From: Owenia fusiformis
Taxonomy: Eukaryota; Annelida; Polychaeta; Sabellida; Oweniidae
Length of the DNA stretch: 64,000 nt
Direction: 5' to 3'
Assembly (NCBI GenBank): GCA_903813345.2
Contig: CAIIXF020000011.1
Location: forward strand, 33,780,166 to 33,844,165
Positions 8,845-61,229 of the stretch are shown piece by piece. Within the stretch, counting starts at the first letter, position 1; every line of letters begins with the position of its first letter. A program made the translations under genes and the position numbers. Below the pieces are notes generated by a model. That model was not told the DNA's origin. It saw nothing but the letters and a program-made list of their open reading frames with translations, and searched no databases.

Positions 8845-11800
8845 GGACAATATTTACTGACGAGCGTGGTGTAAAAGCGGTTTTGAAAAATAGCAAATTT
8901 CTCTTTATGTAGGTAATTTGTGGTTTATGATTCTACATTGATTCTGAAAATACTGGTGTCTAGTTTTTCAGCGTTTTGGAAATATTCAGATTTATACCCC
9001 CCTTGTTTGATTTTGAGGGGGGTACTAGGAAGGCCATGTAAAATTCCTAGAATTTACAGCCAATCATTTTGATATTTACAGGTAATCATGTACTTATCAT
9101 GTCCTACAAAAGTAATGAGTTTCATCAAAGTTAGTCAACTGGTTGCTATGGAAACGGAGATCATATGTCAAAAAGTACACAATTTCGTCAAAATGTAAGA
9201 CACCCCATGAGACAAAACACATATTATTTTAATGAAATTGGAAAGAAACACCATAAAAACATTTTAGAAAACTTATTCAGAGTATGTTTGATAATATTAA
9301 ATCAAGTGCTGTTTTATCTTATCCACACAGTGAAATCTATTCCTCATGATTGTATGGCAATGCAAATTAATTTAGAAAGGGGACGTGGCACTTTTCCAAA
9401 GAATTCTTAACTTGTGTCCAATTTTTTGAAGAAAATAAATAACCAATTGTCCTGTTATTTACAGATATTATTCACATCATTATATTTGACTATCATGGAA
9501 AGTTTCATCAGTGTTGGTTTACTGGTTACTATAGTATGCAGATTTATACCCCTTGGTATGATTATTAATAGGGGTACAATGAAAGCCATCTATAATTCCT
9601 AGAATATACAGCCAATCATCTTGATATTTACAGGTAATCGTCTACATATCATGTCTTACAACCATGCCAATTTTCATCAATGTGTATCAATTGGTTGCTT
9701 TGGAAACATAAATCATTTTTTCAAAAGTACACATAAAGGGAGGTACTATGAAAGCCATATATAATTCCTAGAATATCTAACCAATCATCTTGTTATTGAC
9801 AGGTAGTTTTCTACTCACCATGTTCTTCCACTATGACAAAGTTCATAAATGCGGGGCAAATGGTTGCTATGGTAACAGAAATCATTTGTTAAAAAGTACA
9901 CATTATGGCGTACTATGAAAGCCATTTATAATTCCTTAAATATTATGATATTTACAGACAATATACTACTTATCATGTCCTACCATGATGACAAGTTTCA
10001 TCAATGTGGGTCAAATGTAGGTAGAAAGCTATTTGTTAAAAAAGTACACATTTCGTAAAATTTTAAGACACACCCTAAGACATTGAAAATCTTCATCAAA
10101 TTGGGAGGAATTAGCATGAAAACATTTTAAAAAACCTATTTTGAGTATGTCTGATAATATTTAATCAATGCATACTTCATCTGGGCCATTTGATGTATTG
10201 TATTTGCTTATGATAATAAAACTATGCAGAATGCGGTTGTCACATTATGCGTAGGGACATAGTAAATTATGAGCTGATCTCACTTAGTCATCTTTTATAT
10301 CATTTGCATCAAAATCCTCATTCATAGATCTTTCAATGTCTACTTCTGTCAAAGCATCTTTATGTGACTATATGTCTATGAGATCATCAGGTGAAATGGG
10401 TTGGTCTGGCCAATTTGGCTCTATTTTCTCATCAACAAGTTACCACGTCACTTGTAATAAACAAACTAAGAGATATATACAACTATTACACCCAATTAAA
10501 AATACTGGAAATGCTTCTTGATGAATTCTAAAAACAATGAACAGTTGAAAAAACCAGATGTCATAAAAAAGTTGTGAACAACAGCATGTATTACTCTGAG
10601 TGTAAAACATGTCCGTTGATGACCAGTGATGGCAATAAAGCGTCCACTGTTGTGATTGATGAGATGTGATAAGTTTTATGAAATTTTTCCACGCTTATTT
10701 CTCCCAAAATGATGAACATATTATGTGCTTAATGTCAAAAGTTGCATGAGTCTTAGATTTTTACGAAAATGTGTACTCTTTTAACAAATGATTTCTGTTA
10801 CCATAGCAACCAAATAACCAACATTGAAGGCACTTGTTATACTGGTAGGACATGTAAACAGATGATTACCCGTAAATATCAAAATGATTGATTGAATATT
10901 CTAGGAATTATACATGGCTTTCATAGTACCCCCTTAATGTGCACTTTTTAACAAATTATTTCTGTTACCAGAGCAACCAATTGACCAACATTGATGGCAC
11001 TTGTCATACTGGTAGGACATGATAAGCAGATGATTACCTGTAAATATCAAGATGATTGATTAAATATTCTGGGAATTATACATAGTACCCCCTTGATGTG
11101 CAATTTTTAAGAAATGATTTCTGTTACCATACCAACCAATTGACCAACATTGATGGCACTTGTCATACTGGTAAGACATGATAAGCAGATGATTACCCAT
11201 AAATATCAAGATGATTAATTGAATATTCTAGGAATTATACATAGTATCTCCTTAATGTGTATTTTTTAATAAATTATTTCTGTTACGATAGCTACCAAGT
11301 GTTAAACATTAATGAAACTTGTCATAGTGGTAGTGCATTATAAGTAGATGATTACCTGTAAATATCAAGATGAATGGCTGTATATTCTAGGAATTATAGA
11401 TGGCTTTCATTGTACCCCCCCCCCCTTAAATCATACCAATGGGGTATAAATCTTTTTACCATTGTAACCAGTAATCCAACGCTGATGAAATTTTTCATGA
11501 TAGTCAAACATAATGATGTGAATAATATCTGTTAATTTCAGGACAAATGGTTACTTATTTTCTTCAAAAAGTTGAACACAAATAAAGAATTCTTTGGAAA
11601 AGTGCCACATTCCCTTTCTAAATTTACTTGCATTGCCATATAATCATCAGCAATAGATTCCACTATGTGGATAAGATAAAACAGCAGTTGATTTAATATT
11701 ATCAAATATACTTTGAATAAGTTTTCTAAAATGGTTTCATGGTGATTCCTTCCAATTTCATGAAAATAATATGTGTTTTGTCTCATGGGGTATCTTACAT

Positions 11801-27834: not shown

Positions 27835-28680
27835 AGAGATATTGGGGATTTTCCCTTATGATTGGTTATCCATTTCTGTTTTTTGCATACAGTGTATTTT
27901 TTAGATATTGGGGATTTTTCCTTATGACTGGTTATCCATTTCTGTTCCTTTTGCATACAGTATATTTTGAGATATTGGGGATTTTTCCTATAATATGACT
28001 GGTTATCCATTTCTGTTTCTTTTGCATACAGTATATTTTGAGATATTGGGGATTTTTCCTATAATATGACTTGTTATCCATTTCTGTTTCTTTTGCATAC
28101 AGTATATTTTGAGATATTGGGGATTTTTCCTATAATATGACTGGTTATCCATTTCTGTTTCTTTTGCATACAGTATATTTTGAGATAATGGGGATTTTTC
28201 CTATAATATGACTGATTATCCATTTCTGTTTCTTTTGCATACAGTATATTTTGAGATATTGGGGATTTTTCCTATAATATGACTGGTTATCCATTTCTGT
28301 TTCTTTTGCATACAGTATATTTTGCATTGAGATAATGGGAATTTTTCCTATAATATGACTGATTATCCATTTTTGTTTCTTTTTCATGCAGTATATTTTG
28401 AGATATTGGGGATTTTTCCTTATGACTGGTTATCCATTTCTGTTTCTTTTGCATACAGTATATTTTGGGATAATGGGTATTTTTCCTATAATATGACTGG
28501 TTATCCATTTCTGTTTCTTTTGCATACAGAATATTTTGAGATAATGGGGATTTTTCCTATAATATGACTGGTTATCCATTTCTGTTTCTTTTGCATACAA
28601 TATATTTGAAATATTGGGGATTTTTCCTTATGACTGTTTATCCCTTTTTGTTTCTTATACATACAGTATATTTTAGGGAG
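27835..28680 (+). repeat. Minisatellite of 65-71-bp units, about 12 copies
   Basis: Each unit runs GATATTGGGGATTTTTCCTA(TAATATGACTGG), TTATCCATTTCTGTTTCTTT, TGCATACAGTATATTTTGA. Length changes mostly come from presence or absence of a short TAATATGA-type block; one unit near 28320 has an extra TGCATT. Central copies are nearly identical and edge copies more diverged. Several open frames on both strands across it are produced by the repeat and are not genes. Confidence 0.92.
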
Positions 28681-31836: not shown

Positions 31837-32160
31837 TGTATTACATACCTAGCGAAGCATTTGTATAGAAGTCAATGGGAAAGTTAGCGAGCTATATCCA
31901 CCGATATTGCCCGATTACCCCGATATAGTCCGCTTACCTCGTTTTGATATTAGATTTCTTTAATAACCATGATAATATCATGACGTCACGTCATTGATAC
32001 AAAGTAACCATGGGAACAAAGGCATGTAATACATCAGTTATGTCACTATGACGTGAAATATGCCTTCGTTCTTGCCCAAATATAGAGCCTCCCAAGGTCG
32101 GCCTATATTGGGAGAACTCAGGCATATTTCACGTCATAGTGACATAACCTCTAAATATAT
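31837..32160 (+). repeat. 324-bp recent repeat, copy 1, with 29-bp perfect hairpin
   Basis: Aligns end to end with 60906-61229, with two substitutions that I can find and no gap. Begins TGTATTACATACC; the first 197 bp are bounded by a 10-bp inverted repeat (TGTATTACAT at 31837 and ATGTAATACA at 32024). The remainder is a hairpin with exact 29-bp arms 32037-32065 and 32120-32148 (GTTATGTCACTATGACGTGA...) and a nested CCCAAATATAG/CTATATTGGG stem. Non-coding, recently mobile or recently duplicated. Confidence 0.9.
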
Positions 32161-42539: not shown

Positions 42540-43174
42540 TTGGTGTTCACATTTATATTTACAGCATGAACGTTCTTTCTGTCTAGCAATTACGTTGATT
42601 GTTCCATTTATCTTATCCCGCGTACAAATGCGTGTAAATGTCAATTCATAAGTAATTGTGCAATCACGTTCCAAGAAAAATACTTACTGGCCTTTGATAA
42701 ATTAGTTCCAAATCCTGAGATTAAATCATGATCACATTCAATGCTTTAGTTTTGTCAAGTCCAATATTCACCATTTTAGAAATGAATACTCGTACGTAAA
42801 GATATTTTGAAAGTAATGGCCATTTCTCAAATATGATGCGCATATTGAAAAATGGCCCATTATTAATAAAAATAGTCCCTTTCATAAATCTACCAGAAAT
42901 GCATACAAACATTTTAAATTTGACAGCAAGAGAATTATGTGATGGAAGAATATGACCTCGAAAATATGAATGGTATACGAAGTCTTGTAATTCCCCGCCC
43001 GGGAAATGTCAACAGGGAAATAACTTTCACATAAACACCGAGAACTATGAGGAATTATATTTCATGTGGCGATAATGTCATCAAAGTCAGGCAATACACT
43101 TAAAATAATATTGCGATACTACCCCATGGGCCCTGTGAGTATTCTACATTATTCTATGGTTGGCCTATTAGTAT
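42540..43174. other. Gene-free stretch, nothing recognised
   Basis: Anonymous AT-rich DNA between the possible MITE and the foldback element at 43175. Confidence 0.4.
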
Positions 43175-44500
43175 AAAGAATCCATGCGTTATTTACGGGT
43201 GTGTAAGCGTTAATTACGCTCGTGTAGATGTAAAATAACGCCCGTGCTGATGAAAAATTACGCCTGTGTAGGCGTAAATTACGCCCGTGAAGAAGTAAAT
43301 TCTACGGGCGTTCAGAATACATTTACAGGCGTGAACTTACGGCGTTAAAATTATTAATTACGGGCGTTAAGACTGTTATTTTACACGCGCTGAGAAACAT
43401 CTTCACGCCCGTGGAGTTTATTTTTGGCGCCGTAAATTATGAACCAATCAGAACCTTACTTACATGATGATTTAATGCATCCTTGCTAAAAGAGCAACTC
43501 CGAGATACTTGCGCTAGTAAACAACAATCAGAAGCCTGCTTACATTTTAGTGTGTTGCATTGAGGTCCTTAAATATTCGTTCAAGATTGAACTTGATTTA
43601 ACCAAAGAAGTATTCAATTTTTAGAGCAAATTATATTAAAAGGCAAATTGAAGAGACATGTACTGTGTTGGCAGTTATCAACACCCATTGTAGAAACGAC
43701 AAAATTGCAGAATATTTTGAGAAGGTATACATGTTTGGTTTCTAAATACGATGATTTTTGGATAATTCTCCAATCTAGGCGTCGGCTTTAGAGGTAGGCT
43801 AGGTAGGGACTTATTAAGCTCACACGCATTGCAGCTTACAGTCTCATTATACAGTTAGATCGCTAATGTATCCCTCTAAAGGATGTGTCCAGATACTAGA
43901 ATTATAGTATCTGATCAACTGCAATAGACTATATCCTGCAGATTTGGCATTTTTTGAAAATGTACTGAAAATGTCAAATGAGCCTATACACCTAGTACCT
44001 AGCCAGCATATGTTCAAATTTGGTGTTAGGGAGATGTGTACTTTTTGGAATCTTTATGCAGCCGTCTTTATATGTCACATGTTATTTCCAGGAATACATA
44101 ACTCATTTAATATACGATGTACATCTTTCACATTTGCACAAATAGTGCACCGAGAAACCCAGAAAAGAAATAATATTTCATATGCCTCCAATTGCAACAG
44201 TTGTTCCTGGCACAATCATGAGTATGTTATTAACTTGCACAAGGATCTTGGAGTTGTACTTTTAGCTATAATGCATCGTATCATCATGTAAGCAAGATGC
44301 TGATTGGTTCATAATTCACGGCGCTAAAATGAACTCGACGGGCGTATAGATGTTTTTCAACGGGTGTTAGATACTGTCTTGACGCCCGCTATTGAACATT
44401 TTAACGCCGTTAGTTTACGCCTGTATTTGTTTTAACCCGTATAGAATTCACTTCTTAACTATGGCTGGCCATCTGGACCAATGTATCGTCATACTTTTAA

Positions 44501-44929
44501 CGCCGTAAAATCTACTTTTAACGCCGTAAAAACGATTCTATACGCCGTAAAGAATTACTTTTACGCCGTTAAAAACGATTTTTTACGCCGTTAAAATTCA
44601 TTCTGAACGGCGTCAAAAATAATTTTTAACGCCGTAAAAACGATTGTATACGCCGTAAAGAATTACTTTTTACGCCGTTAAAAACGATTTTGTACGCCGT
44701 CAAAACCGATTTTTACGCCGTTAGAAATTATTTTTTACGCCGTTAGAAATTATTTTTTACGCCGTTAAAAATCTTTTTTACGCCGTTAAAAATTATTTTT
44801 TACGCCGTTAAAAATTATTTTTTACGCCGTTAAAAATTATTTTTTACGCCGTTAAAAATTACTTTTTACGCCGTTAAAAATTATTTTTTACGCCGTCAAA
44901 ACTGATTTTTTACGCCTTTCGAAATTGCG
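44501..44929 (+). repeat. Tandem array of ~20-22-bp units, TTTTTACGCCGTTAAAAATTA type
   Basis: About 19 ACGCCGT-centred units plus one reversed (ACGGCGT near 44605). The last eight or so before 44890 are almost identical, and earlier ones vary in the spacer (AACGATTnTA, TCTAC). The inward side of the array is the more homogeneous. Confidence 0.92.
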
Positions 44930-45191
44930 AACGTACAGAACATTGTTAATCATTTGCGAAAAAATGTTTAAACAATGAAAACTCGATGTATATCAAATTC
45001 CCGAGATTTCCATACAACCAAATGCGTCTGGCAAATAAAAATTCCAATATAAATGATAAATGTGACATGTACAGTGACAGAAAAATAGGGTTTTGGATTT
45101 ATATCAATCAGTCGGTAAGTCGAACATACACGTTCGTTTGTTCAATGAATACCAGATTGTAACGCTGGTTTTAATTGGCTGCCAGCTATAC

Positions 45192-45430
45192 TTTTTAACG
45201 GCGTACAAAATCGTTTTTAACGGCGTAAAAAGTAATTCTTTACGGCGTATAAAATCGTTTTTACGGCGTTAAAAATTATTTTTGACGCCGTTCAAAATGA
45301 CTTTTTACGCGTACATAATTATTTTTGACGCCGTAAAAAAATCAATTTTGACGGCGTACAAAATCGTTTTTAACGGCGTTAAAAGTAATTCTTTACGGCG
45401 TATAAAATCGTTTTTACGGCGTTAAAAGTA
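45192..45430 (-). repeat. Inverted partner array of ~20-bp ACGGCGT units
   Basis: About 11 units, mostly ACGGCGT (the complement of the left array), with two flipped ACGCCGT units near 45288 and 45331. A pair of units (…TATAAAATCGTTTTTACGGC) occurs twice, suggesting block duplication within the array. Confidence 0.9.
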
Positions 45431-45764
45431 TGACGATACATTGGTCCAGATGGCCAGCCATACTTAACGGGCGTAATTAACGCTTTGACGGGCGTAATTA
45501 ACGCCTACACAGGTGCCAGGAACAACTGTTGCAATTGGAGGCATATGAAATATTATTTCTTTTCTGGGTATCTCGGTGCACTATTTGTGCAAATGTGAAA
45601 GATGTACATCGTATATTAAATGATATATTAATTTCACGTCTACACGGGCGTAATTAACGCCTACACACCCGTAAACTACACGTGGATACTTTGGTTAGGT
45701 TGGCTCACCATATTATTCACTTGGTTGTCGAGAAAACATGCAACTAAGATACCGTCCTTTATAT

Positions 45765-46270
45765 CATGATCAGAGCAATATCAGGTATATAATGGCAAGT
45801 GATAAGTCCCATATTTGGGACAGGGATGATATCGGGACTAGAGGGATGATATCAAATATCATCCCGGGTAAATTTTAAAAAATACATTTTCCCCAAAAAA
45901 TCATTTTTTCAACATTCCATTTTTCAAAATTTTTCATTTTTTCAAAAATTTACATTTTTTCTAAAAATTGCTTTTTTCAAATATTTTTATTTTTTGGTTA
46001 AAGATAATTTTTCATTTTTCAATTTATTTATAAGTATTATGTTTTTTAGCCCTTAAGTTCTAATTGTACTTTGGAATGGGATAATATGTATCGTTAATAT
46101 TTCCAAGATTCAATCATTTTTTTCATTAACAGAAGATTTTAGCCAGATATTGCTCTTGATCATGGTATTATGTCGTTATCCACCTGTCGGGATGATATGG
46201 GTAATATCCCATAGATGATATCGGCAATATTGATATCATCCTTGTGATATTCTCCATAATAAGTCCCTCC
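45765..46270. repeat. Imperfect foldback around a T-rich low-complexity core
   Basis: ATGATCAGAGCAATATC(A)GG near 45766 is inverted near 46150-46168, and GGGATGATATC motifs repeat at both sides (45823-45865 and 46190-46245). The core 45875-46025 is a run of CATTTTTTCAAAA-like degenerate units. Possibly a MITE. Confidence 0.5.
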
Positions 46271-60905: not shown

Positions 60906-61229
60906 TGTATTACATACCTAGCGAAGCATTTGTATGGAAGTCAATGGGAAAGTTAGCGAGCTATATCCACCGATATTGCCCGATTACCCCGATATAGCCC
61001 GCTTACCTCGTTTTGATATTAGATTTCTTTAATAACCATGATAATATCATGACGTCACGTCATTGATACAAAGTAACCATGGGAACAAAGGCATGTAATA
61101 CATCAGTTATGTCACTATGACGTGAAATATGCCTTCGTTCTTGCCCAAATATAGAGCCTCCCAAGGTCGGCCTATATTGGGAGAACTCAGGCATATTTCA
61201 CGTCATAGTGACATAACCTCTAAATATAT
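60906..61229 (+). repeat. 324-bp recent repeat, copy 2
   Basis: Same orientation as 31837-32160 and about 29 kb away, with two differences (A/G near position 31 and T/C near position 93 of the repeat). It lies in the central spacer of the 59344-63720 palindrome. The open frame starting at 61129 begins inside the hairpin and is not a gene. Confidence 0.9.

Follow-up and report, generated by a model that had tools for sequence, protein, structure and literature searches.

A stretch of 64,000 nucleotides of Owenia fusiformis DNA (the window) contains a region crowded with short repeats. On both strands together, the 7-mer ACGCCGT has 33 matches in the window against 1.29 expected, a number reached by none of 100 shuffles, and 31 of the 33 matches lie within positions 43175-45692. 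A sequence-only reading had taken this region for one element of the Foldback/TU family with two zones of sites. The questions raised by the locus are whether it is indeed a single element, to which group of mobile DNA it belongs, and what role the repeated units may have.

Two nested transposons

The supposed single foldback element is two related small transposons, one of which has inserted into an end array of the other. What stands of the original description is the foldback-type character, in that short tandem units build up long inverted ends; what does not stand is that there is only one element.

The outer element spans 43155-45712, in two parts separated by the nested insertion, and its limits are defined by the element ends and the target duplication. 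The true ends, TATGGTTGGCC at 43155 and GGCTCACCATA at 45712, have the sequence TTATTC on both sides (43149-43154 and 45713-45718, recognized by flank match). Outer inverted ends had been noticed before, with limits (43175-45692) that fall about 20 bp short on each side. The left part (43155-44459, forward strand), which extends up to the nested insertion, begins with TATGGTTGGCCTATTAG, can be aligned to the loci L008 and L065, and comprises the left end and the centre of family A. The right part (45469-45712, forward strand) terminates with GGCTCACCATA. It contains an inverted local copy of the outer-centre segment 44093-44213 (45513-45633, reverse strand, 96% complementary), which is missing at that place in L065. 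The complete A copy L008 is 1450 bp long; its inverted ends extend over 372 bp (94%), with units in about the outer 290 bp. An open frame of 115 codons in the A centre (43944-44291, forward strand) is not a gene: a Pfam search at E <= 1 gave no match, and the frame is open without indels in none of the 19 copies aligned over its full length, so that it was rejected as a coding frame.

The terminal array of the outer element (43195-43440, forward strand) is built from ACG-NN-CGT-type units (ACGGGTGT, ACGCTCGT, ACGCCCGT, ACGGGCGT) about 21 bp apart. The looser class of units that had been seen near the ends is represented by the ACGGGCGT and ACGCCCGT units, which stand outside the ACGCCGT and ACGGCGT arrays and are part of the outer element. 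What had been described as two site classes kept in ordered zones mainly reflects the nesting of two families that have different units; a few ACGCCGT-type units occur in the outer family too (43339, 44404).

The inner element, from family B, has 1003 bp (44460-45462, forward strand, TATGGCTGGCCATCTGG..CCAGATGGCCAGCCATA). The sequence CTTAAC (44454-44459 and 45463-45468, again by flank match) borders its two ends, TATGGCTGGCC at 44460 and GGCCAGCCATA at 45462. The left array (44495-44916, forward strand) has 19 units 21-22 bp apart, 18 with ACGCCGT and one inverted with ACGGCGT, and in addition a degenerate one; the 7-mer units span 44500-44896. The right array (45192-45427, reverse strand) has 10 units (8 ACGGCGT, 2 ACGCCGT) and a degenerate one, and its units span 45198-45422. 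The earlier counts of about 19 and about 11 units are confirmed, as is the period, given as about 20 bp and measured as 21-22 bp. These arrays build arms of about 455 and about 270 bp, which match each other as an inverted repeat over 76 bp at 92%. Between them lies a non-repeated centre (44916-45191, forward strand) for which 45 matches were found in the genome; those that cover the whole centre are 86-100% identical, the others being of partial cover.

In silico removal of the inner element yields a joined sequence of the outer flanks (with one extra T at the junction in the query) that matches L065 through the junction for 105 bp at 96%, and this empty site contains a single CTTAAC. The joined flanks also align to L058 and L064 at lower identity. 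The single-element model was rejected because of the inner duplication and this empty site.

Such nesting is not restricted to the window. For five of the 43 elements with an exact duplication (see below), the flanks, once joined, match an A-type relative across the junction; none of 860 shuffled flanks does so. These are L003, L021, L022, L051 and the inner element of the window, and in all five cases the host is an A-type element. Placed on L065 (1484 bp) as the reference, the sites are at about 37, 1196, 1252, 1277 and 1311, and all of them lie within the arrays or at their edge; these arrays make up about 40% of the A-type element. The fairer count is 4 of 42, because the choice of the window was guided by its structure and the set is not random. 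According to an arithmetic estimate from end counts, A-type targets represent about 0.05% of the genome, a share to which distant relatives may add, since a single A-type unit has 374 matches in the genome. By self-nesting such loci become composites that are difficult to read, the present one being an example.

Dispersed copies and their target duplications

In the 498-Mb host genome we found 98 outer-type (A) ends and 45 ends of a third family, C, each with up to 3 mismatches, 128 inner-type (B) ends with up to 2 mismatches, and 12 ends (up to 3 mismatches) of the type that terminates the right part of the outer copy. Reversed-pattern controls gave none in all four cases, and all four types begin with TATGG.

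Target duplications were examined for 59 loci (L003-L013, L015-L033, L049-L056, L058, L063-L082) and the two elements of the window, 61 in total, with L001, L002, L014, L034-L048, L057, L059-L062 and L083-L089 outside this count. Automatic matching found an exact duplication of at least 6 bp in 43 of the 61. Among paired B loci the proportion is 23 of 27 and among A-ended loci 17 of 27, and L058 from family C and both window elements complete the number. Full copies with defined ends and a target duplication of fixed length, which had been proposed as a check, are thus present. Six of the 43 duplications read as 7 bp, with no excess over a chance extra base.

An exact duplication of at least 6 bp was not found for the B loci L075 (5 bp), L076 (one mismatch), L080 and L082, nor for 10 of the 27 A-ended loci (L004, L007, L010, L012, L013, L049, L052, L056, L071 and L072); among the latter, the duplication of L007 is displaced by 4 bases, L010 and L052 have one mismatch, and L072 has 5 bp. 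The four right-type loci L063-L066 are likewise without one, with 5 bp in L065; L066 turned out to be a truncated right-type end adjoining unrelated DNA and was discarded as an element. L012, L063, L064 and L066, where an end was not recognised, are counted as failures. Among candidates for family C, L057 and the C3 pair L059/L060 were found to have no duplication. The A element of L071 is flanked by mutual inverted repeats (CTGTTTTA..TAAAACAG) rather than by a direct duplication. L051 and L052 represent a related family with a GT-rich centre, and L051 has no frame longer than 95 codons.

The first base of the duplication may show a weak, symmetric preference for G (25 of 84, a value reached in 6 of 2000 random draws), a feature that was chosen post hoc. 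L026 and L027 have their flanks in common and are one event, and L027 was left out of this count.

Copies of B vary between 668 and 1424 bp in length (19 copies). Activity of family B looks recent, since the centres of 14 of the 24 loci compared match that of the window over the full length at 96.7-100%.

The repeat units and what may bind them

The unit alignment comprises 265 units, 60 of them distinct, from 20 B copies. The spacing between B units is 21 bp in 116, 22 bp in 211 and 23 bp in 12 of 380 intervals, and the remainder are mainly doubled steps. In the core, ACG-S-CGT, the six outer bases are conserved at 93-100% among the 60 distinct units, and the centre, which is the most variable position of the core, is C in 80%, the exceptions being mostly G. 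As A, C, G, C, G and T are nearly fixed and the centre is mostly C or G, the B site is an odd palindrome whose orientation is set by its centre base. The gap between the half-sites is one base in the inner family and mostly two in the outer one.

It is plausible, as had been suggested, that the 7-mer is a repeated protein-binding site. We slightly favour the view that the units, which recur every 21-22 bp and hence every two helical turns, are putative transposase-binding sites (ACGSCGT / ACGNNCGT) on one face of the DNA. A dimeric transposase would read the two half-sites ACG and CGT, for which the variability of the centre base is as expected. Some spacer positions of the unit (3 and 17) are conserved as strongly as the core; therefore common descent explains part of the pattern, and conservation alone is no proof of binding. 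Tn7 and Mu, which have several 22-bp transposase-binding sites per end, offer a mechanistic analogue; they are of bacterial and phage origin, with few sites per end, and we claim no family relation. Many sites might raise affinity and aid the synapsis of ends, as reported for Galileo of Drosophila and proposed in that work also for other elements with long ends. Excerpts of PMC3688188 and PMC3573991 describe multiple binding sites in the long repetitive ends of Galileo. With its long, internally repetitive inverted ends, multiple binding sites and dynamic array length, Galileo resembles the elements described here, but belongs to the P superfamily (PMC3573991, in part). An enzyme bound to the arrays could further direct insertion to the arrays of related elements and so lead to nesting, and the length of arrays may shift by tandem expansion, contraction and exchange between arms. 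The copies form a natural series in which the number of units, their spacing and the half-site gap vary, and which can be used for testing multi-site binding by a transposase.

An alternative that we consider rather improbable is that the units bind a host protein, e.g. a CpG-reading or repressor factor, and act in the expression or silencing of the element. The ratio of observed to expected CpG is 3.03 in the inner element and 2.03 in an A end, compared with 0.47 in the A centre and 0.78 in the window. As the unit itself holds two CpGs, this enrichment follows from the motif, whatever binds to it. Among 17 aligned copies, changes of CpG to TpG or CpA are as frequent in the A ends (10 of 862) as transitions at non-CpG C/G (27 of 2412), whereas in the A centre the corresponding numbers are 5 of 220 and 27 of 4770; the counts are small and come from related copies. 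The A ends are not simply better kept, because other substitutions are commoner there, with 144 of 8041 compared with 97 of 14180 in the centre.

The search for the mobilising enzyme

The elements are foldback-style and non-autonomous and, by their ends and duplications, probably driven by an IS3EU enzyme. Excerpts of the literature give 6-bp duplications, inverted ends of over 30 bp and TAYGG..CCRTA termini for fungal IS3EU elements (PMC12730594), and TA..TA ends with a duplication of usually 6 bp for IS3EU generally (PMC10045372). The same traits of IS3EU/GingerRoot, which occurs in animals, fungi and plants, are encountered here: duplications of 6 bp (in the 43 of 61 elements), TATGG..CCATA ends which fit the TAYGG..CCRTA pattern, and inverted ends longer than 30 bp, both in L008 and in the inner arms. 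The difference is that no transposase was recognised in the copies examined and that the long arms are built of 21-22 bp arrays.

As no transposase was recognised and no autonomous partner was found in the loci examined, where a transposase split by introns could escape, the assignment rests on ends and duplications, by which membership of the families in IS3EU appears likely. That a DDE transposase of the IS3EU/GingerRoot type, encoded elsewhere in the genome, moves both elements in trans is the reading that we hold with reasonable, though not high, confidence.

A description of IS3EU elements with foldback-like arrays was not found in the open-access literature searched. The nearest hint comes from oyster, where two scattered satellites have been annotated as IS3EU-related in a paper that also cites work on foldback elements (PMC8268682, in part). 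Long, internally repetitive ends are known in several transposon groups and have been read as convergent (PMC3573991, in part). Such ends with IS3EU-type termini would extend this convergence to an integrase-like lineage. It is conceivable, but we doubt it, that the elements form a foldback-type lineage within or beside IS3EU, with arrays that both recruit the transposase, as multi-site loading platforms, and attract the insertion of relatives, as preferred landing sites, and with the mover being even an undescribed transposase lineage.

The sequence-only reading had suggested looking for a longer relative whose arrays enclose a transposase, and none was recognised. The 8-kb A-ended loci L049 and L050 were rejected as autonomous copies: both are A copies broken up by other DNA, and their frames of at least 110 codons have no Pfam match at E <= 0.01. 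L014 was rejected as a long B element and dropped from the counts, with no right end recognised and its frames lying in a tandem repeat.

The integrase domain rva_4 (Pfam PF24764), which we take to be a marker of IS3EU, has 34 matches in the genome. From these, nine stretches of about 10 kb were inspected (six loci and three copies of one repeated family), and the four unit types are absent from them. Their only TATGGNNNGCC string (L044:7623) is without units. Inverted ends flanked by 6-bp duplications were not found around six of the rva_4 loci, and 30 shuffles gave one hit; the inverted ends of L047, 49 bp long, are of a different type, with no duplication recognised. The rva_4 loci that were inspected were rejected as partners, being without these ends with arrays. 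One observation made here is a repeat of more than 13 kb (L041-L043, L061, L062) with copies that are 99.5-99.9% identical and carry an rva_4 integrase frame of 309 aa; its left end is (T)TTACGAAGC and its right end is beyond the stretch covered.

The remaining loci with only one related end (L083-L089) yielded no complete autonomous element, and among the tested frames of L085, L086 and L088 the only Pfam match was to a reverse transcriptase, in L088. A lead is provided by L084, where a Mutator-type frame of 576 aa (PF20700, E 4e-47) begins at 1346, 1.3 kb from the related end TATGGTAAGCC with its array at 42. A Mutator-like transposase may thus move the elements, which would then be foldback derivatives of MULEs with unusually short duplications, and Mutator-type elements of foldback shape have been described (PMC3169594, in part). 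On the other hand, no right end was found in 6 kb of L084, and a second copy of the protein (C5:31471755-31473278), 99% identical over residues 20-525, has no A, C or right-type end nearby (complete lists with up to 3 mismatches; for B, a part of the 128 ends was listed). Duplications of 6 bp are, moreover, short for MULEs, and we regard the involvement of this enzyme as unlikely. The segment L084:3392-3675, just downstream of the transposon end and the Mutator-type frame, weakly resembles the end of a tyrosine kinase domain, with a match to PF07714 that stays below the cut-off (E 0.0018). The small contigs C313, C513, C418 and C443 contain Mutator-type frames of 711 aa every 3.3-4.3 kb, most rows without internal stops, and represent a tandem array of apparently intact transposase genes.

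The target duplication has 9 bp for Foldback (FB) and 8 bp for TU, with a range of 8-11 bp for FB and MULEs, and that of Galileo has 7 bp. For Tetris, a foldback element from D. virilis, 8-10 bp are given in an excerpt of its description. FB from Drosophila, TU from sea urchin and Tetris are similar to the present elements in their inverted ends of tandem repeats and non-coding copies, but have longer duplications than the 6 bp found here, and other ends. By duplication length, the elements fall outside the Foldback, TU and MULE types, and thereby outside the family that had originally been proposed. A single Foldback/TU-type element with two zones of sites would agree with the long inverted ends of short tandem units and with the lack of recognised coding capacity; against it stand not only these duplication lengths but also the inner ends with their own duplication, the dispersal of 128 inner ends and the empty site in L065, and it is hardly tenable. 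According to part of PMC3706591, Dada inserts in small RNA genes and has no terminal inverted repeats; it was excluded by the long inverted ends and the differing 6-bp target sites found here. The unit number varies among copies and the oyster satellites indicate that such repeats can become satellites. The objection named at the outset, that the arrays are an ordinary satellite or another expanded tandem repeat with no link to transposition, can practically be dismissed for the places listed: 29 of 30 array places are less than 1 kb from a listed B end and the 30th is at 2.2 kb, the 30 places representing the 100 matches listed of 237.

The window contains further repeats. The segment adjoining the right end of the outer element (45820-46230) is AT-rich and contains 18-bp repeats of the TTTTTCAAAA type (45901-45995). 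They are bracketed by GGGATGATAT-type copies at 45823 and 46189, and this may be another small element. The 19-bp unit CCGATATAGCCCGATTACC occurs as a tandem pair at 31901-31938 and again, 29 kb apart, at 60970-61007. Tandem arrays are found at 27836-28674 (period 71, 12 copies), 10779-11398 (period 159, 3.8 copies) and 9571-9943 (period 169, 2.2 copies).
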